Shown piece by piece: positions 25,982 to 56,382 of a stretch of DNA of 56,382 nt. Under the pieces are notes generated by a model. It had not been told where the DNA came from. It ran no database searches and worked only from the letters and a program-made list of their open reading frames with translations. Both the position numbers and the translations under genes were made by a program. Source of the DNA: Xanthobacteraceae bacterium (GTDB lineage Bacteria; Pseudomonadota; Alphaproteobacteria; Rhizobiales; Xanthobacteraceae); contig JAIESR010000127.1 in NCBI GenBank assembly GCA_019745775.1, forward strand, positions 1 through 56,382. Reading direction: 5' to 3'. Every line of letters starts with the position of its first letter. The stretch's first letter is position 1.

Positions 25982-26238
25982 TTGTTCCGTTCCTGATGCC
26001 GGCGGGATGCGTTCGTGTCCGACATCGCGAGAGCGCCGGCGGCTCTCGCCAGAGGGGCCCGGACTTCAGCTATGCCATCAAGGTGACGGACCGAACCGCG
26101 CTTTGCAATTCGATAGTTCCAATGAAGTCCATTTACGGTCTCAATGGTCGTTGGCCATTCTCTCGCGCCCAGGAGTTTATGCGGACGGCCACGTCTCGCG
26201 TTGCGAGAGCTGATCACCATCAGGCCGACGAAAAGCCG
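25982..26238. other. 257-bp intergenic region with no recognisable gene
   Basis: The space lies between the start of the zeta-like gene and the end of the amidase gene. An 80-codon frame on the minus strand (25978-26220) shows no family resemblance, and I see no RNA gene or strong hairpin. It is less GC-rich than its surroundings and may hold the promoter of the zeta-like gene. Confidence 0.4.
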
Positions 26239-48377: not shown

Positions 48378-48454
48378 TGGCAAGGGCGGCAGGATTCGAA
48401 CCCGCGGTCTCCGGGTTGGAACCGGATGCTTTGGCCAGGCTAAGCTACGCCCCT
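48378..48454 (-). tRNA. tRNA-Trp (CCA)
   Basis: On the minus strand a full cloverleaf can be folded: acceptor AGGGGCG/CGCCCTT (one G-U), D-stem GCTT/AAGC, anticodon stem TCCGG/CCGGA with loop TTCCAAC (anticodon CCA), T-stem GCGGG/CCTGC with loop TTCGAAT. G73 and CCA are encoded. The D-loop AGCCTGGCCA is unusual for a bacterial tRNA-Trp. First of ten tRNA genes up to 51466. Confidence 0.88.
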
Positions 48455-48468
48455 ATCGGGAGCACTAT

Positions 48469-48542
48469 TGGAACCTGCGCGCGGTTACGATCCGCGTTCT
48501 CCGGGGCCACAACCCGACGCTCTTCCATTGAGCTACACAGGC
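48469..48542 (-). tRNA. tRNA-His (GTG), atypical
   Basis: Acceptor GCCTGTG/CGCAGGT with wobbles, D-stem GCTC/GAGC, anticodon stem TCGGG/CCCGG with loop TTGTGGC (anticodon GTG), T-stem CGCGG/CCGCG with loop ATCGTAA, then T73 and CCA. It has neither an encoded G-1 nor C73. Loss of these occurs in many alphaproteobacteria, but T73 is unusual. It lies 14 bp from the Trp gene. Confidence 0.85.
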
Positions 48543-48554
48543 ACGATGAATCGT

Positions 48555-48584
48555 CTGCCCGTCGCGCCTATGCGCAGCGGGCAG
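48555..48584. repeat. Hairpin upstream of tRNA-His
   Basis: CTGCCCG (48555-48561) pairs with CGGGCAG (48578-48584); the interior CGCGC/GCGC can extend the stem with mismatches. It lies between tRNA-His and the secreted-protein gene at 48617 and may separate the two transcripts. Confidence 0.5.
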
Positions 48585-48616
48585 CTTTCATGACGAACTA
48601 AAGCAGGTGTCGGCGA

Positions 48617-49672
48617 TCAGTGTCCGGGCACGCCGGTATTCTTCTCGAGCCACGTCGCCCATTGTTTGAGCTTGGCATCCGGCACGATCGGGAAGCCGGG
48701 GTAGTCCTGGTAGAGCTCGATCGAACTCGCGCCGTAGGAGATACCCATCTTGATGGTGCCGTCGAAATCCTTGGGCGTCCTCACATAGGTCTGGAATTCG
48801 ATCTCGGGACCAAGCTGCTTCATGTAAGCGTAGAGCGGATAGAGCGGTTTCGGCAGGTCGGTATCGAGGTCGTGGTTGTCGAGCACGCAGCGGCGGCCGA
48901 CGGCTTTGCGACAGTTGAGCATCACCTGCTTGGTGAAGGCGACGTCGCCGTTCCCCTGGTTAGGGCCGGTCCGCAGCGGATTGACCGTGAGCACCAGCCG
49001 CGACTCCTTCCATGCCGCGTAGTCGGCGACCGCGTTGCTCAGGCAGTTCTTGTAGGCCGCGTCGTTGAAGCCCGCGGCGCGCAGCGGCGCCGCCACGTCG
49101 GGCGGAACGACGAACGGCTCCGCCGTGTACGACATGCATTGCGTCATCGACACTTCCTTGATCAGCGGCCACTTGTCGTAGCGCGCTGCAAGCTGCTGTT
49201 GCAGGTGCGCCCATGCCTGCCGGTAGGCCGGCAACCAGAAGCGCCCGACGACGCGCGGCACGCCGTTGTGGACGGTCTGGATCGGATCGCCGCCGATCTG
49301 CTTGGCCCAATCCGGCGCTTCGAAGCCGCCCCAGATCCGCAGCTTGACGCCGAGCGGCTTCTGCGGATTGCGTTCATTGTAGGCACGCACCTGCGCCATG
49401 GCCTGGTCGATCGCGCTGTGATCGAAGTCGGAGGCGGAGGTCGGCTGCAATTGTTTCCACGTTGCGACCACGACGAGACCGCCGAAAATCCCGGGCTTTG
49501 CGCTGAGCGGCTCCAGCGTGTTGATTGGATCGCCACCGGCGCCGACAAATCGATAGGCGCCCATCGAAATTAGGCCGCGAAGTGGAGACTTGATGTCCTG
49601 CGCTTGCGCCGCGCCCGCCAGTGCGGTGAACACGATGCTGCCGGCCAAGAAGATCTCGCGATAGGCGGTCAT
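48617..49672 (-). CDS. Secreted protein, possible TIM-barrel glycoside-hydrolase-like, inside the tRNA array
   Basis: 351 residues with a signal peptide ending AGAAQAQ. The mature part has RGLISMGAYRFVGAGGDPI, GVKLRIWGGFEAPDWAKQIG, RVVGRFWLPAYRQAWAHL and a C-terminal YGASSIELYQDYPGFP. The order of strands and the Trp/Asp/Glu-rich segments resemble a beta/alpha barrel such as glycosidases, but I cannot place it in a named family. It is on the same strand as the tRNAs and sits between the Trp-His block and the Met-like/Gln/Glu block. Confidence 0.75.
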   Translation of the reverse strand: MTAYREIFLAGSIVFTALAGAAQAQDIKSPLRGLISMGAYRFVGAGGDPINTLEPLSAKPGIFGGLVVVATWKQLQPTSASDFDHSAIDQAMAQVRAYNERNPQKPLGVKLRIWGGFEAPDWAKQIGGDPIQTVHNGVPRVVGRFWLPAYRQAWAHLQQQLAARYDKWPLIKEVSMTQCMSYTAEPFVVPPDVAAPLRAAGFNDAAYKNCLSNAVADYAAWKESRLVLTVNPLRTGPNQGNGDVAFTKQVMLNCRKAVGRRCVLDNHDLDTDLPKPLYPLYAYMKQLGPEIEFQTYVRTPKDFDGTIKMGISYGASSIELYQDYPGFPIVPDAKLKQWATWLEKNTGVPGH

Positions 49673-49962
49673 GCGCTGCCTCTGATTTCTGAACGGGGAA
49701 CGAATGGACGAACATTCTTGCGATGTCGTTAGGATAGAGAATGCTGGTTTCCGAGCCTGCCGGCCTGGTTACCTGCAAACTTCAGGAATGCTTCGCATTC
49801 TATCGAGTGCCGTCTTTCACGGTTTTGGTTCGCGGTGGCGGGCCACGCGCCCGCTGATTTGCCCAGGCATAAGAAGGCATCGCGCGACGTCGCGCGTCGA
49901 CGTTTCTGAAGCGCTTCGACAGGCAACCGCCTCGGTGCCCACTGCAGCTCAAGCGAATTGGG
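49673..49962. other. 290-bp region without a clear gene inside the tRNA array
   Basis: No protein with recognisable features and no further complete tRNA cloverleaf could be folded here on either strand. A short palindrome lies around GAAGCGCTTC (about 49909-49918). The 5' side probably contains the promoter of the secreted-protein gene at 48617. Confidence 0.4.
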
Positions 49963-50036
49963 AGGTCGCAGGTCCGGGTGACGATCCCGGCTGTCGATCC
50001 TTATGAGGGATCGCTCCTCGCCAGCGAGGCCCTGCG
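49963..50036 (-). tRNA. tRNA-Met-like (CAT), atypical D-arm
   Basis: Anticodon stem GATCC/GGATC with loop CTCATAA (anticodon CAT), T-stem CCGGG/CCCGG with loop ATCGTCA, acceptor CGCAGGG/ACCTGCG (six pairs, G7 and A66 unpaired). Only 17 nt separate the acceptor from the anticodon stem, so a normal D-arm does not fit. A73 is followed by CCT, not CCA. It could be an elongator Met, an Ile2-type tRNA or a decayed copy. Confidence 0.65.
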
Positions 50037-50037
50037 T

Positions 50038-50111
50038 CGGTTCCCCCTCATGTATTCGAACCACGATCTCCGCATCCAAAGTGCAGCATCCTGCCGTTAG
50101 ACGAAGGTGGA
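50038..50111 (-). tRNA. tRNA-Gln (TTG)
   Basis: Acceptor TCCACCT/AGGGGGA (one A-G mismatch), D-stem GTCT/GGAT, anticodon stem CTGCA/TGCGG with loop CTTTGGA (anticodon TTG), T-arm CGTGG/ACATG with loop TTCGAAT (one mismatch). A73 is followed by CCG rather than CCA. It is only 1 bp from the Met-like gene. Confidence 0.78.
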
Positions 50112-50154
50112 CGCGTGTCGGTTCCGAATGTGCGCGGTGCATGCGTTTGCGAAC

Positions 50155-50229
50155 TGGTGCTCCCTGACGGTTTCGATCCGTCTTCTGCGGGGTGAAAATC
50201 CGCGATCCTAGCCAGTAGACGAAGGGAGC
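50155..50229 (-). tRNA. tRNA-Glu (TTC)
   Basis: Acceptor GCTCCCT/AGGGAGC perfect, D-stem GTCT/GGAT, anticodon stem GCGGA/CCCGC (one mismatch) with loop TTTTCAC (anticodon TTC), T-stem GACGG/CCGTC with loop ATCGAAA, A73 and encoded CCA. 43 bp upstream of tRNA-Gln(TTG) on the minus strand. Confidence 0.88.
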
Positions 50230-50376
50230 CGCGCACCGCCGATGCAATGGCGGTGTTCATGTCTGAACATCAGTTCATCGTGATGTATGCCCGCCGCCAA
50301 AATGCCACTGGCGTCCAACGGACAATTGATGCACATACGTTCCCCGGTGGATGACGATTCCAAGGGAGACCAATCA

Positions 50377-50673
50377 ATGCGAATGTTTTTCTCGGGTTTG
50401 GTGGTGGCCGCGGCCGTGGCGCTGAGTGCGCCCGCGATTGCCGCGTCGGTGATGAGCCCGGCGGGCGTTGCCGCGGCGGTCAATGACACCGGCGTCGTCG
50501 AACAGGTCGCGCATGGCTGCGGCGCCGGGTGGTGGCGCGGACCGGATGGCGTTGGACGCTGCCGGCCGATGCGCCGCGCCGGCGTGGTCGTTGTGCCGGG
50601 CGCGCCGGTCGTCGTGGTTCCCGGGCCCCGCTGGTGTCACCGCCCGTACTCGTCCCGCAACTTCCGCTGTTGA
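50377..50673 (+). CDS. Small secreted protein with GCG/CRP-type motif
   Basis: A 98-residue exported protein. The signal peptide (MRMFFSGLVVAAAVALSAPAIAA) is followed by the motif HGCGAGWWRGPDGVGRCRPM. This resembles the GCG...CRP(N) domain of short Rhizobiales hypothetical proteins. The tail is Val/Pro-rich, with VVVVPGAPVVVVPGP, and ends RNFRC. AAGGGAG (50362-50368) is 8 nt before the ATG. A clear intrinsic terminator follows at 50719. It is opposite in strand to the tRNA array, between the Glu and Ser genes. Function unknown. Confidence 0.8.
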   Translation: MRMFFSGLVVAAAVALSAPAIAASVMSPAGVAAAVNDTGVVEQVAHGCGAGWWRGPDGVGRCRPMRRAGVVVVPGAPVVVVPGPRWCHRPYSSRNFRC

Positions 50674-50718
50674 GCGCAGGCTCGCAGGATAGGGACTGCT
50701 ACCTGGTCCCGTAAGATT

Positions 50719-50745
50719 AGCCCGGCCGTGCCGGGCTTTTCTTTT
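50719..50745 (+). terminator. Intrinsic terminator after the small secreted-protein gene
   Basis: AGCCCGGC (50719-50726), loop CGT, GCCGGGCT (50730-50737), then TTTCTTTT to 50745: a perfect 8-bp GC-rich stem with a T-run, reading on the plus strand. It is 46 bp after the stop at 50673. Confidence 0.85.
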
Positions 50746-50806
50746 GGGTAAGAAATTCGCAACCGGCGGAGCGCACGCTTCCACTCGAACGAATCAGGAG
50801 TGTGCG

Positions 50807-50962
50807 ATGGCCCCCACGACGTACGCGGTCCAGATGACGGCCGCCGAGACCGCGCTCAAGCTTGCGCGCGACGCCGGAGATGTCGCCGCGATGTTGGCGG
50901 CGCTCGCGACGATCACTCGGCTTGTCCGGCAGCGGTATTGGGCGGCCAAGCTCGCGTCTTGA
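50807..50962 (+). CDS. Small helical protein of unknown function (51 aa)
   Basis: The ATG at 50807 follows AGGAG by 6 nt. The 51-residue product begins MAPTTYAVQMTAAETALKL and is Ala/Leu-rich and predicted amphipathic-helical, with a basic C-terminal part (TRLVRQRYWAAKLAS). It lies between a terminator and the tRNA-Ser gene, opposite in strand to the tRNAs. I do not recognise a family; the good ribosome site is the main support for it being real. Confidence 0.5.
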   Translation: MAPTTYAVQMTAAETALKLARDAGDVAAMLAALATITRLVRQRYWAAKLAS

Positions 50963-50984
50963 ATCTGTTACTGGCGAAGGTGGA

Positions 50985-51072
50985 TGGCGGAGGGTGCAGG
51001 GATCGAACCTGCGCGACCCTTGAGGTCTCGCCGCGTTAGCAGTGCGGTGCCTTTCCGCTCGGCCAACCCTCC
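50985..51072 (-). tRNA. tRNA-Ser (GCT)
   Basis: Acceptor GGAGGGT/ACCCTCC perfect, anticodon loop CTGCTAA (anticodon GCT), long variable arm (class II tRNA), T-stem GCAGG/CCTGC with loop TTCGATC, G73 and encoded CCA; 88 nt. The most canonical member of the array. Confidence 0.95.
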
Positions 51073-51102
51073 ATAAGCTAACCCTCCTTGACTTGATATG
51101 TG

Positions 51103-51179
51103 TGGAGCCCTCGGCAGGACTCGAACCCGCACGGTCCCGAGGTAGAAGCTCGGCGCTCTGTCCGTTGAGCTACGAGGGC
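51103..51179 (-). tRNA. tRNA-Arg (TCT)
   Basis: Acceptor GCCCTCG/CGAGGGC perfect, D-stem GCTC/GAGC, anticodon stem CCGAG/CTCGG with loop CTTCTAC (anticodon TCT), T-stem GCGGG/CCTGC with loop TTCGAGT, T73 and encoded CCA. Confidence 0.92.
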
Positions 51180-51224
51180 ATTGCTGTCGCAGGCTGGCTG
51201 GCGCGGCCGCGACGCCGCCCGAAC

Positions 51225-51296
51225 TGGTGGAGACAGCCGGTAACGCTCCGGCCGCGACGATCTTGCAAGGATCGTCTGCACCCTTGTGCTGTCCCC
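51225..51296 (-). tRNA. tRNA-Ala-like (TGC), shortened D-arm
   Basis: Acceptor GGGGACA/TGTCTCC (one G-U), anticodon stem CGATC/GATCG with loop CTTGCAA (anticodon TGC), T-stem GCCGG/CCGGC with loop AGCGTTA, A73 and encoded CCA. Only 15 nt lie between acceptor and anticodon stem (GCAC-AAGG-GTGC can pair), so positions 8-9 and the normal D-loop are missing. The G3-U70 pair required by alanyl-tRNA synthetase is present. Confidence 0.72.
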
Positions 51297-51303
51297 GTTG
51301 AAG

Positions 51304-51380
51304 TGGAGTGGCGGACGGGACTCGAACCCGCATCTACGCGATTTGCAGTCGCGGCCGTAACCAGTTCCGGTCACCGCCAC
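51304..51380 (-). tRNA. tRNA-Cys (GCA)
   Basis: Acceptor GTGGCGG/CCGCCAC perfect, anticodon stem CGCGA/TCGCG with loop CTGCAAA (anticodon GCA), T-stem GCGGG/CCCGT with loop TTCGAGT, T73 (the Cys identity base) and encoded CCA. It lies 7 bp from the Ala-like gene. The D-arm is non-standard for a host tRNA-Cys. Confidence 0.88.
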
Positions 51381-51392
51381 CTGATTGAACGG

Positions 51393-51466
51393 TGGATCCG
51401 GGAGCAGGACTCGAACCTGCATCGCAGCGTTCAGGGCGCCGCATCCTGCCGTTAGACGATCCTGGA
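51393..51466 (-). tRNA. tRNA-Gln (CTG) with C33
   Basis: Acceptor TCCAGGA/TCCCGGA (one A-C mismatch), D-stem GTCT/GGAT, anticodon stem CGGCG/CGCTG with loop CCCTGAA, T-stem GCAGG/CCTGC with loop TTCGAGT, T73 and encoded CCA. The anticodon is CTG, but the almost invariant U33 is C. Most upstream gene of the array. Confidence 0.82.
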
Positions 51467-51592: not shown

Positions 51593-52786
51593 GTGGTAGA
51601 CCGCAGGAACGATCCGGCGTTTCTCTATTTCCCGGACAATTACCGCTGGTCGATGGGGCTCATGATCTGCCTCTCGGGCGCGCCGTGGGGCGGCGCCGAA
51701 ATCGACGAAGTCCATCGCGTCGGTCGCGCGCTCGCCGGCAAGGTCGGTGACGACGATGCCTGGTTCGCGGAATGGACGCGCATGGGAGATATGGTCGAAG
51801 CGCGCGGCCGTGCTGCCGAGAAGGACGGCCACAAGCACACCGCGGCGGCCTGTTTTCTGCGGGCGACGCGCTACTACCAGACCGGCGAGCGCTTCCTGCA
51901 GCCGAAGTCGCAGCGCGGCATGGACGTCTACGCCAAGTCGGTGAAGACATTCCGCGACGCCGCGGCGATCGTGCGCAGCCCGCGCATCGAGCACGTCGAG
52001 ATCCCGTATGTAGGCAAGAGTCTGCCGGCGCTGCTGGTGCATCCCGATCGCGAAGCGACCGGCGGGCGTCCGGCGCCGGCGATGGTCTATTTCGACGGCT
52101 TCGACGTCACCAAGGAGATTTGCTACGGCTACGCGGTGCCGGATCTCGCGGCGCGCGGCGTCGGCTGCCTGATCGTCGACGGTCCCGGCAATGGCGAGAG
52201 CGTGCGCTTCCGCAATCTGCCGCTGATCGCCGAGACCGAGCGCTATGCGACGCCGGTCTATGAGTATCTCGCCGGCCGTCCCGAGTTCGACCCCAAGCGC
52301 ATCGGCGTGATGGCGCTCAGCCTCGGCGGCTACTATGCGCCGCGCGCGGCCTCGCTCGAACCGCGCTACGCCTGCTGCATCGCCTGGGGCGCACAGTGGG
52401 ACTACCATGCGATCTGGAAGAAGCGGCTCGAGGATCTCGCCAGCGGCAAGGTGCTGTCGCTGTCGGTGCCGCCCGAGCACCTGCAATGGGTGCTTGGCGT
52501 CGACAGCCAGGAGGCCGCCCTCAAGGTGCTCGAGGGCTTCCGTCTCGACGGCATCGTGCAGAAAATGAAATGCCCGTTCCTGCTGCTGCATGGCGAGGGC
52601 GACGAGCAGATTTCGCTGTCGCTCGCCCACACCTTGTTCGATGCGGTGGGCTCGGCGCAGAAGACGCTGCGGGTGTTCAGCCGGGAGGAGGGCGGCCACC
52701 ACCACTGCCAGGTCGATAACATCACCATCGGCGTCCACACCATGTGGGATTGGGTGTGCGACGTGCTGGAGCCGGGTAGCCGATGA
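51593..52786 (+). CDS. Alpha/beta hydrolase (dienelactone-hydrolase/FrsA-like C-C or ester hydrolase)
   Basis: A 397-residue cytosolic protein with a helical N-terminal cap region (about 1-130) and an alpha/beta hydrolase core. The triad candidates are Ser243 in GVMALSLGGYYAP, Asp337 in LLHGEGDEQIS and His369-371 in EEGGHHHCQ. The layout resembles 2,6-dihydroxypseudooxynicotine hydrolase-type enzymes, which cleave C-C bonds beside ketones. The start is GTG 51593. Its stop overlaps ATG 52783, which supports an operon with the binding-protein and CocE-like genes. Confidence 0.85.
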   Translation: MVDRRNDPAFLYFPDNYRWSMGLMICLSGAPWGGAEIDEVHRVGRALAGKVGDDDAWFAEWTRMGDMVEARGRAAEKDGHKHTAAACFLRATRYYQTGERFLQPKSQRGMDVYAKSVKTFRDAAAIVRSPRIEHVEIPYVGKSLPALLVHPDREATGGRPAPAMVYFDGFDVTKEICYGYAVPDLAARGVGCLIVDGPGNGESVRFRNLPLIAETERYATPVYEYLAGRPEFDPKRIGVMALSLGGYYAPRAASLEPRYACCIAWGAQWDYHAIWKKRLEDLASGKVLSLSVPPEHLQWVLGVDSQEAALKVLEGFRLDGIVQKMKCPFLLLHGEGDEQISLSLAHTLFDAVGSAQKTLRVFSREEGGHHHCQVDNITIGVHTMWDWVCDVLEPGSR

Positions 52787-52797
52787 CGGGGGGTATC

Positions 52798-53562
52798 ATG
52801 AAGAATTTCGTGCGAAGGGTCGCCTTGTGCCTGGTGGCGTTTGCCTGGCTGGCGCCGGCCGGCGCTGCCGAGCTCAAGGTCTTGAGTGCCAATGGCATGC
52901 GCGAAGTCATGGAAGACCTGCGGCCCAAGTTCGAACTTGTAACCGGCCACAAGCTCACGATCGCGTTCGCGACGGTCGGCGTCATCGTGCAGCGCGTCGA
53001 GGGCGGCGAGACGGCCGATGTCGTGGTGGCGCCTCAACAGGGCATCGATCGTTTAGCGAAAGGCGGCCACGCCATCCCGGGCAGCATCACCGTGCTTGCA
53101 CGTTCCGGCATCGGGGTGGTCGTTCGCAAGGGCGCGCCGAAGCCTGATATCTCGACGCCCGAAGCATTGAGGCGCGCACTTCTCGCCGCAGCGTCGGTCA
53201 CCTGTCTCGATCCGGCCGCCGGCGGGCTCAGTGGCGTCCATTTCGCCAAGGTGCTCGATCGGCTTGGTATAGCCGATGAGATGAGACCGAAGTTGATCTT
53301 CCATCCCAATGCCAAGGCAGCGGGAGCACTGGTGGCGGATGGGAAGGCCGCCCTCGGCATCAATCTCGTCCAGGAGTTGATGCCGCTCCCGGGCATCGAA
53401 CTGGTCGGCCCGCTGCCGGGCGATCTACAGCTCAATGTCGTCTTCGCGGCAACGTTTATGACCGGAGCCAAGGATGCCGCAGCGTCCAAAGCATTGATCG
53501 AGTTTCTTCGGACGCCCGAAGCTGTGGCCGTGATCAAAGCCAAGGGCATGGAGCCGGGCTGA
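52798..53562 (+). CDS. ModA-like periplasmic substrate-binding protein
   Basis: A 254-residue exported protein with signal peptide MKNFVRRVALCLVAFAWLAP. The mature part follows the ModA/molybdate-type binding fold: ELKVLSANGMREVMEDLRPKFE, TADVVVAPQQGIDRLAKGG, GIGVVVRKGAPKPDISTPEA, ADGKAALGINLVQELMPLPG. Such single proteins are often annotated molybdate-type but may bind organic acids. I chose ATG 52798 after GGGGGG; an in-frame ATG at 52783 overlaps the upstream stop. No modBC genes are adjacent. Confidence 0.83.
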   Translation: MKNFVRRVALCLVAFAWLAPAGAAELKVLSANGMREVMEDLRPKFELVTGHKLTIAFATVGVIVQRVEGGETADVVVAPQQGIDRLAKGGHAIPGSITVLARSGIGVVVRKGAPKPDISTPEALRRALLAAASVTCLDPAAGGLSGVHFAKVLDRLGIADEMRPKLIFHPNAKAAGALVADGKAALGINLVQELMPLPGIELVGPLPGDLQLNVVFAATFMTGAKDAAASKALIEFLRTPEAVAVIKAKGMEPG

Positions 53563-53573
53563 GGGTGCTGACG

Positions 53574-55301
53574 ATGAAAAGCGAACAGCGCGACGGCATG
53601 CAGATCGATTGGGATGCGCCCATCGAAATGGATGACGGCGTGGTGCTGCGCGCCGACGTGTTCCGTCCCATCGGCAGCGGCAAGCATCCGGTGATCCTGA
53701 GCTACGGGCCTTATGCCAAAGGCCTCGCGTTCCAGGAAGGCTACAAGGGCAATTGGGAACGCCTGATCCAGGCCGCGCCGGAAGTGCTCGAAGGCTCGAC
53801 CAACAAATACCAGGTCTGGGAGCTGGTCGACCCCGAGAAGTGGGTGCCGGACGGCTACGTCTGCGTGCGCGTTGACTCACGTGGCGCGGGGCGCTCGCCT
53901 GGGTTTATCGACATCTGGTCGGCGCGCGAGGCGCAAGACATCTACCATTGCATCGAGTGGGCCGGCACGCAGCCGTGGTCGAGCGGCAAGGTCGGCATGA
54001 ACGGCATTTCCTATTTCGCCACCAACCAGTGGCAGGTCGGAGCGCTCAAGCCGCCGCATCTTGCCGCGCTCTGCATCTGGGAAGGTTTCGCCGACTATTA
54101 CCGGGAGCTCGCCCGGCACGGCGGCATCCTCTCGGGCTTCACCGCGAGCTGGTACAAGCGGCAGGTGCTGCGCGTGCAGCACGGCGTCGGCGAGAACGGT
54201 CCGAGGAGCCGCGTTACCGGCGAGCCGGTGGCGGGGCCGGAGACGTTGCCCGCTGAAGTGCTCGCGAAGAACGCCGCCGACGCGGGCGGCGAAATGCTGC
54301 AACGGCCGTTCATCGACGGCTATTACCGCGACCGCATGGTGGCGTTCGAGCAGATCGAAGCGCCGCTTCTCTCGGCCGCCAATTGGGGCGGTGTCGGCCT
54401 GCATCCGCGCGGCAACTTCGAAGGCTATCTGCGCGCCGGCTCCAGGCAGAAATGGCTCGAAGTTCACGGCGATACTCATTTCACGCATTTCTACAGCAGC
54501 TATGGAATGGCGCTGCAGAAGCGCTTCTTCGGCCACTTCCTCAAGGGCGAAGACACCGGCTGGGACCAGCAGCCGCGGGTCGCGCTCAACATCCGCCGCC
54601 CCGGCGAGCACTTCACGCTGCGGGGCGAGACCGAATGGCCGATCGCGCGCACGCAGTGGACCAAATACTACCTGCAGCCGGACGGGCAGGGCCTCGGCAC
54701 CGAAGCGCCGGCACGTGCGATGACACTCGCCTACGAAACCACCGGCGACGGCATCACCTTCCTGACGCCGCCGATGACGCAGGAGCTCGAAGTCACCGGA
54801 CCGGTCGCGGCGAAACTCTGGCTGTCGTCCGACACCACCGATGCCGACGTGTTCCTGGCGCTCCGGGTGTTCGATCCGTCAAGCAAGGAAGTCACGTTCA
54901 TCGGTTCCAACGATCCGCGCACACCGGTCGGCCTCGGCTGGCTGCGCGCCTCGCATCGCAAGCTCGATCCGAAAGAGACGCTGCCGTACCGGCCGTTCCA
55001 TACCCATGACGAAGCCTGGCCGCTCGAACCGGGCCAGCCGGTCGAACTCGACATCGAAATCTGGCCGACCTCGATCGTGGTGCCGCCGGGCTATCGGCTC
55101 GGTTTCACGGTGCGCGGCAAGGACTATGAGGTCGATGGCGCCGATGGCGGGTTCGCCAACGCGATGTACCCGATGAAGGGCGTCGGACCGTTCACGCATG
55201 CTGATCCGAGCGACCGTCCTCCCGACATATTCGGCGGCACCAACGTGCTACACTTCGCCGCCGAGAAGATGCCGTATCTGCTATTGCCGGTGATCCGATA
55301 A
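53574..55301 (+). CDS. CocE/NonD family hydrolase
   Basis: A 575-residue serine hydrolase of the cocaine esterase/X-Pro dipeptidyl-peptidase S15 family. The core opens with DDGVVLRADVFRP, then VRVDSRGAGRSPG and the nucleophile Ser146 in VGMNGISYFATNQW. A C-terminal jelly-roll domain (about 330-575) includes GPVAAKLWLSSDTTDADVFL and PPGYRLGFTVRGKDYE. It cleaves an ester or amide bond; the substrate is unknown. No signal peptide. The start at ATG 53574 has GAGGG upstream; a GTG at 53565 is possible. It follows the ModA-like gene by 11 bp. Confidence 0.92.
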   Translation: MKSEQRDGMQIDWDAPIEMDDGVVLRADVFRPIGSGKHPVILSYGPYAKGLAFQEGYKGNWERLIQAAPEVLEGSTNKYQVWELVDPEKWVPDGYVCVRVDSRGAGRSPGFIDIWSAREAQDIYHCIEWAGTQPWSSGKVGMNGISYFATNQWQVGALKPPHLAALCIWEGFADYYRELARHGGILSGFTASWYKRQVLRVQHGVGENGPRSRVTGEPVAGPETLPAEVLAKNAADAGGEMLQRPFIDGYYRDRMVAFEQIEAPLLSAANWGGVGLHPRGNFEGYLRAGSRQKWLEVHGDTHFTHFYSSYGMALQKRFFGHFLKGEDTGWDQQPRVALNIRRPGEHFTLRGETEWPIARTQWTKYYLQPDGQGLGTEAPARAMTLAYETTGDGITFLTPPMTQELEVTGPVAAKLWLSSDTTDADVFLALRVFDPSSKEVTFIGSNDPRTPVGLGWLRASHRKLDPKETLPYRPFHTHDEAWPLEPGQPVELDIEIWPTSIVVPPGYRLGFTVRGKDYEVDGADGGFANAMYPMKGVGPFTHADPSDRPPDIFGGTNVLHFAAEKMPYLLLPVIR

Positions 55302-55320
55302 TGCCCAAGGGAGGAGCCCG

Positions 55321-56292
55321 ATGGTCTCGTTAGTGCGTCTGTTCCTCATCCTCGTGGGAGTTGCGTTCGGCTTCGCCGTTGCCGCGCAGGACTATCCGAG
55401 CCGCACGGTCACGATCATCGTTCCTTATCCGGCCGGCGGTCCGACCGACCAGCTCGCGCGCGTGCTGGCGCCGAAATTCTCCGACAAGCTCGGGCAGAAT
55501 TTCATCGTCGAGAACATCAGCGGCGGCGGCACCACCATCGCGACGGGTCGCGTCGCGCGCGGCGCCCGGGACGGGCACACGCTGCTGCTTCACAACCTCC
55601 AGATCTCGGCGAATGTCGCGCTCTATCCGAAGCTTCCCTTCGATACCGAGAAGGAGCTCACGCCGGTCACTTTCATCAACCAGAACCCGCTGGTGCTGGT
55701 CGGTCGCAAGTCGCTTGAGGCGAATACGCTGCCCGAGCTCCTCGCCTTGATGAGGAAGTCTCAGTTGCGGATCGCGCATCCCGGTACCGGATCGACCGGC
55801 CATCTTGCGACCTCGTTGCTCGCCAAGGAGGCGAAGGTCGACTTTGTCGGCGTGCCCTATCGCGGCGCGGCGCCGGCCTTGCAGGACATCCTGGGGGGAC
55901 ACGTCGATCTGTTCTTCGCGACCCCGCAATCGGTGGTGCAGAGCGTCGCCAACGGATCGATGAAAGCCTACGGCATCACGGCGAAGGCGACGTCGCCGCA
56001 ATTCCCCAAGGTCGCGAGCTTCGTCGATGCGCTCGGGCCCAAACTCGAAATCCTCTACTGGCACGCCTTGTTCGTGCCGGCCGGGACGCCGCAGGGCGTG
56101 ATCGACAAGCTGAGCGGCGTGCTGCTCGGCGTGCTCGACGATCCGGCGGTCATCAAGGCCTGGGCGGAGACCGGCGTGGCACCGTTCGCCAAGGACCAGC
56201 GTTCGCCGAAGGCGGCGCAGGCGCTGATGCAGAGCGAGGTCGCGCGTTGGAGCCAGGTGGTGCGCGAGAACAACATCCAGCCGTCCGAGTGA
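55321..56292 (+). CDS. TTT-family (Bug) solute-binding protein
   Basis: A 323-residue periplasmic receptor with signal peptide (to about GFAVAAQ) and canonical TctC/Bug sequence: DYPSRTVTIIVPYPAGGPTD, QNFIVENISGGGTTIATGRV, RIAHPGTGSTGHLATSL, GVPYRGAAPALQDILGGHVD-LFFA. GGGAGG precedes the ATG. It is the last gene of the 51.6-56.3 kb group. It lacks TctA/TctB partners and probably serves the same catabolic route as the CocE-like hydrolase. The last 90 bp of the window hold no recognisable gene. Confidence 0.92.
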   Translation: MVSLVRLFLILVGVAFGFAVAAQDYPSRTVTIIVPYPAGGPTDQLARVLAPKFSDKLGQNFIVENISGGGTTIATGRVARGARDGHTLLLHNLQISANVALYPKLPFDTEKELTPVTFINQNPLVLVGRKSLEANTLPELLALMRKSQLRIAHPGTGSTGHLATSLLAKEAKVDFVGVPYRGAAPALQDILGGHVDLFFATPQSVVQSVANGSMKAYGITAKATSPQFPKVASFVDALGPKLEILYWHALFVPAGTPQGVIDKLSGVLLGVLDDPAVIKAWAETGVAPFAKDQRSPKAAQALMQSEVARWSQVVRENNIQPSE

Positions 56293-56382
56293 GCCGGCAC
56301 GCGCTGTGCCCTTCCTGAGAGAGGGGTGACAGTTCATTCCGGAGACATGGGTTACACAATCGGGCCTTTTGCGGGGAGCGCA

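Follow-up and report, generated by a model that had tools for sequence, protein, structure and literature searches.

A tRNA gene array of probable phage origin, divided between two contigs, in the genome of a Xanthobacteraceae bacterium

Why does a Xanthobacteraceae genome carry ten closely packed transfer RNA (tRNA) genes with ten different anticodons, and where did they come from? The question is raised by contig C113 (JAIESR010000127.1), whose whole length of 56,382 bp is the window analysed here, in the draft genome GCA_019745775.1 (G000; 6.3 Mb, 147 contigs). The ten genes all lie on the minus strand between positions 48378 and 51466, and the initial annotation of this DNA had proposed that they derive from a mobile element. 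The purpose of whole tRNA sets in phages and plasmids has been debated for decades. As judged from the comparisons below, the window genes are the 3' part (the 3' third) of a larger array of about 37 ordered gene positions, or slots, and this array is a new lineage of a known kind of element, the tRNA array. The joint explanation that we regard as probable is that a phage-carried array was captured in the chromosome, that its carrier was lost, and that its original role was the replacement of cleaved host tRNAs.

Nine of the ten genes (Trp-CCA, His-GTG, Met-CAT, Gln-TTG, Glu-TTC, Ser-GCT, Arg-TCT, Cys-GCA and Gln-CTG) are called by ARAGORN with default settings, and the tenth, Ala-TGC, is called only with -ps92, can be folded into a cloverleaf and shares 93% identity with the Ala-TGC in the array of genome G208; places, strand and anticodons are thus those first proposed. 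Eight genes pass the Rfam tRNA gathering score (39.1-58.5 bits), so the low covariance scores for most genes that the initial annotation had named as a counter-indication did not appear. Met-CAT and Ala-TGC are absent from the Rfam matches even at E<=1 and are weaker calls, which rest on ARAGORN and homology. The division into three tight blocks also held, with intergenic gaps inside the blocks of 2-45 bp in place of the 1-45 bp claimed. The blocks are separated by two large gaps of 1421 and 755 bp, which hold the three protein genes already noted: one 351-amino-acid (aa) open reading frame (ORF) on the tRNA strand in the former and two small ORFs on the opposite strand in the latter.

These ten genes are only part of the feature. 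A search of the genome with RF00005 found 70 tRNAs in total, and a second cluster, on contig C53 (17,842 bp), adds 14 array tRNAs, likewise encoded on the minus strand (Arg-GCG, Asn-GTT, Phe-GAA, Gly-GCC, Ser-CGA, Arg-CCG, Pro-CGG, Asp-GTC, Lys-CTT, Ile-GAT, Val-GAC, Val-TAC, Leu-CAG and Thr-CGT), together with two degenerate copies, one Tyr-like and one Leu-like. C113 ends with the left end, and C53 starts with the right end, of one repeated IS481-like element; with the gene order, this suggests that the two contigs adjoin through one copy of the element. Outside both clusters, the host set comprises 48 ARAGORN genes with 42 anticodons. It includes another copy for nine of the ten window anticodons, so the array genes are not the sole genomic copies of their kind, the second counter-indication that had been named. 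Ala-TGC is the exception, and Ile-GAT is likewise absent from the 48-gene set. Since both tRNAs are usually located in rRNA operons, the draft assembly may simply lack the host copies.

Chance is excluded as the source of the array because its gene order is conserved in other genomes. A tight tRNA array in matching order lies in G016, from a different genus of the same family; further same-order arrays were found in G208, G128 and G308 and, in part, at a contig edge in G006, a genome of G000's own genus, so that five genomes of the family besides G000 have a copy. Contamination is estimated at 6% for G006 and 9% for G208; G308 is a single contig of 7.2 Mb, and its array is therefore chromosomal. 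Scored against the 37-slot order, 23 of the 24 array genes of G000 are in place, only Ala-TGC being out of order, and the score of 67.5 compares with a mean of 24.3 and a maximum of 37.5 in 500 shuffles. The other 17 entries of the lineage, two of which (L255 and L172) represent one prophage, scored 30.0-108.0, each exceeding its own shuffle maximum, and three comparators, an Acidiphilium plasmid, the mycobacterial plasmid pCBMA213_1 and the Sinorhizobium phage Phosso, all remained under theirs.

An HNH endonuclease gene stands immediately before slot 15 (Arg-CCG) in four of these genomes (G016, G208, G128 and G308); in G006 it lies at the edge of the contig. With the array HNH proteins as query, 17 of 32 viral stretches were confirmed, 11 of which (L252-L262, IMG/VR records) carry the tRNAs in the same order; five others have tRNAs in orders that look different (unscored) and one has no tRNAs. 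Several viral loci are cut by the 8-kb flank, and their missing 3' slots are no evidence of absence. Nearly all of the 80 loci listed in a scan of named genomes for the HNH gene lack the array; it is present in L172 (Bradyrhizobium sp. C9) and L203 (which is G006), and in L227 (Aestuariivirga) 11 tRNAs form a shorter cluster, in unscored order. As side observations, an HNH gene in G312 (L069), with no tRNA within the fetched 3.4 kb, is 61% identical to the array HNH of G016, compared with 53-56% for four chromosomal HNH relatives; one viral array (L262:13226-13615) contains a tmRNA gene between Arg-CCT and Ser-GCT, and in two viral records (L252:11395-12981, L288:1248-2612) a gene for a Ro60-type RNA-binding protein (TROVE domain) adjoins the array.

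Searches at the DNA level reached less far. The 3.1-kb window block matched 23 of 61 genomes, its own included, at E<=0.001, mostly over short stretches or single tRNAs, and besides the window only the G016 match covered two adjacent array tRNAs. The G016 array matched 41 plasmid and 66 phage records, with no place covering 80% of the query; among the best 30 of each, coverage was at most 9%, mainly of the HNH gene or single tRNAs. When eight tRNAs served as queries across the whole taxonomic order, 43 of 397 cases matched at E<=1e-12: the window, and otherwise a Gly-gene stretch. A literature search on tRNA arrays and on prophage tRNA clusters in Bradyrhizobium found no published report of this lineage, most subscription papers lying outside its scope.

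One viral carrier has a recognisable set of phage genes. In PHROGs, the 111-kb record G678 (the contig of L256) encodes a terminase, portal, head protease, major head protein, tape-measure protein, tail fibre and tyrosine integrase. Its terminase recurs in six of 17 other genomes and records searched, at 59-96% (viral G676, G677, G680, G681 and G683, and the Bradyrhizobium sp. C9 genome), and the six related phage records that share this terminase family measure 102-132 kb. G677 contains L255, which lies wholly inside L172 of Bradyrhizobium sp. C9, and so G677 is a prophage of that strain; as one and the same prophage, L255 was left out of the tree and identities reported below, as were the Acidiphilium plasmid, pCBMA213_1 and Phosso, which are unrelated in order. 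Phage-like replication genes also occur near the array in G674 and G682, both of which lack that terminase, and the array thus seems to be common to unlike phages.

No resident carrier was recognised around the chromosomal copies. The G678 terminase has no match in the whole genomes of G000, G006, G016, G208 and G308, and one remote 24% match in G128. Beside the window array, no phage or conjugation genes were recognised; phage structural genes were not seen near it, and its tested flanks are metabolic or transport genes or have no family (unrelated phage types were not searched for). With PF00589, G000 gave 11 tyrosine integrase matches at E<=1e-6, all of them outside C113 and C53 (serine integrases were not searched for), and none lies on the array contigs of G208 or G128 either; the nearest such gene is about 1.3 Mb from the array in G308 and about 90 kb in G016. 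Contig C68 of G685, which carries two integrases, was ruled out as an array contig. The flanks tested are ordinary and mutually unlike: G000 has TctC, transporters and peptidases; G308 has amidohydrolases and a molybdopterin enzyme; G208 has a prolyl oligopeptidase and a GMC oxidoreductase; G128 has a TctC receptor and a hydroxyacid dehydrogenase; and G016 has TctC with a TPR regulator. An association of the array with TctC genes was dropped as uninformative, TctC receptors being common in the stretches examined.

The tRNA genes themselves point away from the host. In 20 of the 21 slots for which a host copy exists, the sequence closest to the G000 array gene is an array homologue (mean best identity 73.4%, vs 58.5% for the host copy). 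Only His departs from this, and for Gln-CTG the two are nearly level (58 vs 57%). The tree built from concatenated slots unites G000 with the chromosomal arrays of G128, G208 and G006 (support 95) and groups the chromosomal array of G308 in a clade with L172, L254, L256-L259 and L261 (support 100; its place inside the clade, 47). On these grounds, and with the shared order in 11 viral records, the origin in a mobile element first proposed is very probably correct, and we infer that transfer ran from phage to chromosome.

The check in sister genomes that the initial annotation had called for points the same way. In a run of 16 genomes with Rfam, the two of seven same-genus genomes that are at least 95% complete (G002 and G007) have 43 and 42 tRNAs vs 70 in G000, the five other drafts, 69-93% complete, having 15-33. 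The counts are 38 and 43 in G017 and G084 vs 65 and 61 in G128 and G208 of the same genus, and 47 each in G312 and G030 vs 67 in G308. The lower counts in relatives mark the array as an accessory feature.

How such a set was carried, captured and retained calls for an account. In the one we favour, the array of about 37 slots would have been carried by large phages and one copy would have entered the chromosome of the G000 lineage; the phage would later have been lost, and the array left without 13 to 14 of its slots and split by host genes and by the IS481-like element. In the phage, the genes would form a near-complete substitute set, and the array tRNAs may sustain translation after host defences have cut the host tRNAs. 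In the chromosome, the remaining genes look foldable and are probably a redundant spare set, whose expression and use we infer.

Their structural state is consistent with this picture. The G000 array averages 20.7 stem pairs per gene, compared with 20.3-21.1 for viral arrays, 19.9-20.5 for the remaining chromosomal ones and 21.7 for host tRNAs, and CCA is encoded in 21 of the 23 G000 array genes measured, the two others being the window genes Met and Gln-TTG. Between G000 and G208, 130 base pairs have changed on both sides and 120 of them still pair, as counted on MAFFT alignments with the ARAGORN structures of one partner. By these measures the surviving array genes are structurally sound; the changes may date from the phage stage.

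As to the original role, the phage arrays, over the loci examined, provide 16-20 isotypes and duplicate ordinary anticodons, which fits a substitute set better than a supplement to codon supply. Beside the anticodon, 16 of 21 anticodon loops differ from the host's, as do 128 of 210 adjoining stem positions. Position 33 is C in four of the 23 default-called array tRNAs of G000 (Val-GAC, Ile-GAT, Gly-GCC and Gln-CTG; L009:1912-3256 and window 51393-51466) and T in 48 of 48 host tRNAs; C33 occurs in some tRNAs of most other arrays and recurs in phage and plasmid arrays of other orders. Van den Berg et al. 2023 (PMC10264068) have argued that phage tRNAs are shielded from anticodon nucleases by changes in their anticodon loops, and this argument, with the divergence of the G000 loops and C33 from the host's, is why we favour the replacement of cleaved tRNAs. 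Taken by itself, the proposal that the array originally replaced host tRNAs cut by defences has, in our estimate, about an even chance. As a separate observation, T-loops starting with ATC (position 54) are frequent in the arrays of G000, G208, G128 and G006 (e.g. window 48469-48542 and 50155-50229; L009:3104-3178) and rare in most viral arrays; they are common to G000, G208 and G128 at the Ile and Glu slots and occur in 0 of 48 host tRNAs.

A bolder extension, which we consider unlikely on present comparisons, is that chromosomes of this family repeatedly capture phage arrays and keep them as a cut-resistant second set that protects the cell. If it were true, the host would survive its own or its competitors' tRNA-cutting defences and toxins, a phage counter-defence would have become a host immunity gene set, and its marks of resistance would be the C33 that recurs in anticodon loops and the A54 T-loops that members of this clade have in common.

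Several observations weigh against phage capture or against the proposed role. A Pfam integrase match occurs in three of the six related phage records (G677, G678 and G681) and exceeds the cut-off only in G681, so that a temperate life is shown for few. Five of the 11 viral records (G674, G675, G679, G682 and G684) lack a terminase of the G678 type, and G675 gave no PHROG match in the two proteins tried. The 37-slot list was made by eye after all arrays, G000 included, had been viewed, and the order test thus guards against chance, not against the choice of consensus. The clade of G000 stands beside, not inside, the main phage clade, the deep branches are weak (35-55), and none of the phages found carries an array of the clade to which G000 belongs; the reverse course, from a chromosomal ancestor into phages, is thus conceivable. 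The junction of C113 with C53 is ambiguous, as ends of the same IS481-like element occur at ten other contig ends. Among pairs changed on one side only between G000 and G208 (n = 31), 15 still pair and 16 are broken, and the T-loop starts with TTC in 18 of 23 array genes vs 48 of 48 host genes. The arrays of G308 (0/25) and L259 (0/31) have no C33, and loop divergence is what any set of divergent tRNAs would exhibit and is no demonstration of nuclease resistance. Finally, 14 of the 37 slots are empty in G000, which makes decay without function possible, with the qualifications that slot 21 (Ala) is displaced rather than lost, slot 18 retains the Tyr-like copy, albeit a degenerate one, and many of the other arrays likewise have nothing in slots 5 and 9.

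These vacancies lead to the rival that survives best, to which we give slightly less than an even chance: the array would be a neutral relic, left over from a lost prophage and decaying, its intact cloverleafs reflecting recent capture. It is compatible with a phage origin, and its odds overlap with those of the explanation that we prefer. The empty slots fit it well, as do the degenerate Tyr-like and Leu-like copies on C53, the two window genes without encoded CCA and the opposite-strand genes that split the array. So does the position of the inserts, since five of the six of at least 0.5 kb coincide with an empty or displaced slot: small ORFs at Gly-TCC, a TctC gene at Glu-CTC, a thiamine-pyrophosphate enzyme at Leu-CAA, a small ORF at Ala, and the IS element with four genes at Pro-TGG; the sixth, between Met and His, does not. 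Yet the genes that remain (23 of 24 measured) have about as many stem pairs as phage arrays, the T-stem of Ala-TGC shows paired changes relative to G208, though these are possibly older than the capture, and the five other genomes of the family have kept a copy as well.

A second rival would make the array a domesticated, silent tRNA set that is switched on in translational stress, by analogy with the trn operon of Anabaena PCC 7120. It could draw on the 18 isotypes in ordered slots (19 with the displaced Ala), on the redundancy with host anticodons and on the precedent reported in PMC10272220. We think it improbable: the array is not one operon, opposite-strand genes and the IS element divide it so that a single transcript is unlikely, its presence within the genus is patchy, and no regulator was identified for it in G000.

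Codon supplementation, in which the array would supply tRNAs for codons rare in the host, is the most widely accepted hypothesis for phage tRNAs according to PMC10264068. It seems still less probable here, as nine of the ten window anticodons duplicate ones of the host and the GC content of phages G678 and G681 (61-63%, vs 66% in the window) leaves little obvious mismatch by that measure. We also set aside tRNA-dependent lysogeny, which, as presented in PMC10865867, explains a single phage tRNA that replaces a disrupted host gene, not a whole set. An assembly or binning artefact, with array contigs from a contaminating phage or organism, might be suspected in a draft of 147 contigs with an estimated contamination of 2.72%, and is very improbable given that the block lies within a 56-kb contig of ordinary metabolic genes, that C53 has a purD-type gene (GARS domains), and that the separate genome G308 has the same array in its single contig.

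Within the window, the array can be followed from its 3' end. The first block holds Trp-CCA (48378-48454, slot 36, the 3' end of the array, placed also by order; Rfam 55.8 bits) and His-GTG (48469-48542, slot 35; 50.6 bits), whose T-loop starts with ATC. The 351-aa ORF (48617-49672, minus strand), inserted between His and Met, matched no Pfam or NCBIfam family. In the second block, Met-CAT (49964-50036, slot 34; no Rfam listing, 78% identical to its G208 homologue) ends in ACC, not CCA, and Gln-TTG (50039-50111, slot 33), also with a 3' end ACC, has 39.1 bits, the lowest among the Rfam matches; Glu-TTC (50155-50229, slot 32; 43.1 bits) has a T-loop starting with ATC, likewise in G208 and G128. 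The next gap has two ORFs on the plus strand: one of 98 aa (50377-50673), at the missing slot 31 Gly-TCC, with an NCBIfam GCG_CRPN match slightly below cut-off and with related sequence in the same-genus genome G002, and one of 51 aa (50807-50962), without Pfam match. The third block comprises Ser-GCT (50985-51072, slot 30; 51.8 bits; 85% to viral homologue L257, 53% to the host copy), Arg-TCT (51103-51179, slot 28; 58.5 bits; 79% to viral homologue L260, 62% to the host copy), Ala-TGC (51225-51296), displaced from slot 21 and with an atypical T-loop, Cys-GCA (51304-51380, slot 27; 49.4 bits) and Gln-CTG (51393-51466, slot 26; 44.5 bits), which has the C at position 33. Between this block and the contig end, four accessory genes on the plus strand (51593-56292) encode, by Pfam, an alpha/beta hydrolase, a solute-binding protein, an S15 peptidase and a TctC receptor, and the left end of the IS481-like element (56339-56357, plus strand; family assigned via its plasmid relatives) closes the contig. 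Directly before slot 15 Arg-CCG, on C53, G000 has in place of the HNH gene one for a GIY-YIG protein (PF01541), which matches only itself in the genome at E<=1e-5.

The element at the contig ends has a target pattern of its own. It is repeated in G000, where it breaks contigs, and its interior was not found in the assembly. Its right end occurs at five contig ends (L292, L290, L291, L296 and L300), in all five in one orientation and roughly 10 bp beyond a tRNA-Ser or tRNA-Arg gene, on its 3' side. Six rhizobial plasmid copies (L306, L307 and L310 among them) were examined out of 84 records matched, three with a tRNA-Arg or tRNA-Ser gene at the same distance and three without, and the transposase of two plasmid copies has an NCBIfam IS481 match near cut-off. 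From its sequence surroundings, it looks like an insertion sequence that targets tRNA genes. Elsewhere in G000, contig C110 (L011:11324-11467) has two adjoining tRNA-like stretches (Rfam 59 and 43.9 bits), neither called by ARAGORN, possibly another small foreign or decayed pair, and the window has an Rfam terC RNA (RF03067) above the gathering score at 26010-26070 on the minus strand.

What makes this lineage useful is that one fixed-order set can be traced through phages of several types and through six genomes from the same family that lack the phage terminase (one with the 24% match), beside relatives without the set, so that array function becomes testable within a single bacterial family. 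Because most slots have phage, chromosomal and host homologues, the capture, loss and retention of individual tRNAs can be dated and compared.

Among known systems, a tRNA array unit has been defined as at least 20 tRNA genes at a density of at least two per kb (Tran et al. 2016, as quoted in PMC5966550). As assembled, G000 has ten such genes on C113 and 14 on C53, or 24 if the contigs adjoin; each piece is dense enough (the window block has its ten within 3.09 kb, and the C53 cluster its 14 within 5.4 kb), and the joined array, with 4.9 kb between, would fall below two per kb. The array units of Mycobacterium, as described by Morgado and Vicente 2018 (PMC5966550), similarly consist of dozens of ordered tRNAs spread over chromosomes, prophages, phages and plasmids, with horizontal transfer inferred and HNH endonuclease as the most widespread internal protein gene; mycobacterial linear plasmids also carry tRNA arrays according to PMC12803027. 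The lineage described here differs in its order (pCBMA213_1 scores 31.5, vs a shuffle mean of 27.7 and maximum of 40.5), in its Xanthobacteraceae hosts and in the fixed slot of its HNH gene, which G000 lacks. Plasmid unnamed1 of Acidiphilium multivorum JZ-6 (NZ_CP041717.1) is likewise alphaproteobacterial, with about 38 tRNAs and both GIY-YIG and HNH genes inside its array, but its order score is 36.0 against a shuffle maximum of 40.5, and its HNH is 51% identical to that of the G208 array. Acidithiobacillus ferrooxidans and A. ferrivorans reportedly have a large redundant tRNA array linked to integrative elements, which we set beside that of G000 by description only. The trn operon on the delta plasmid of Anabaena PCC 7120 is also a redundant second set, of 26 genes, outside the housekeeping set, and it is the functional parallel for which experiments are described; PMC10272220 reports it as one silent operon under TrcR control, whereas the array of G000 is split. 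The phages of van den Berg et al. 2023 (PMC10264068) have about 33 tRNAs with anticodon loops that differ from the host's; the argument there uses known nuclease sites, whereas ours draws on sequence divergence.

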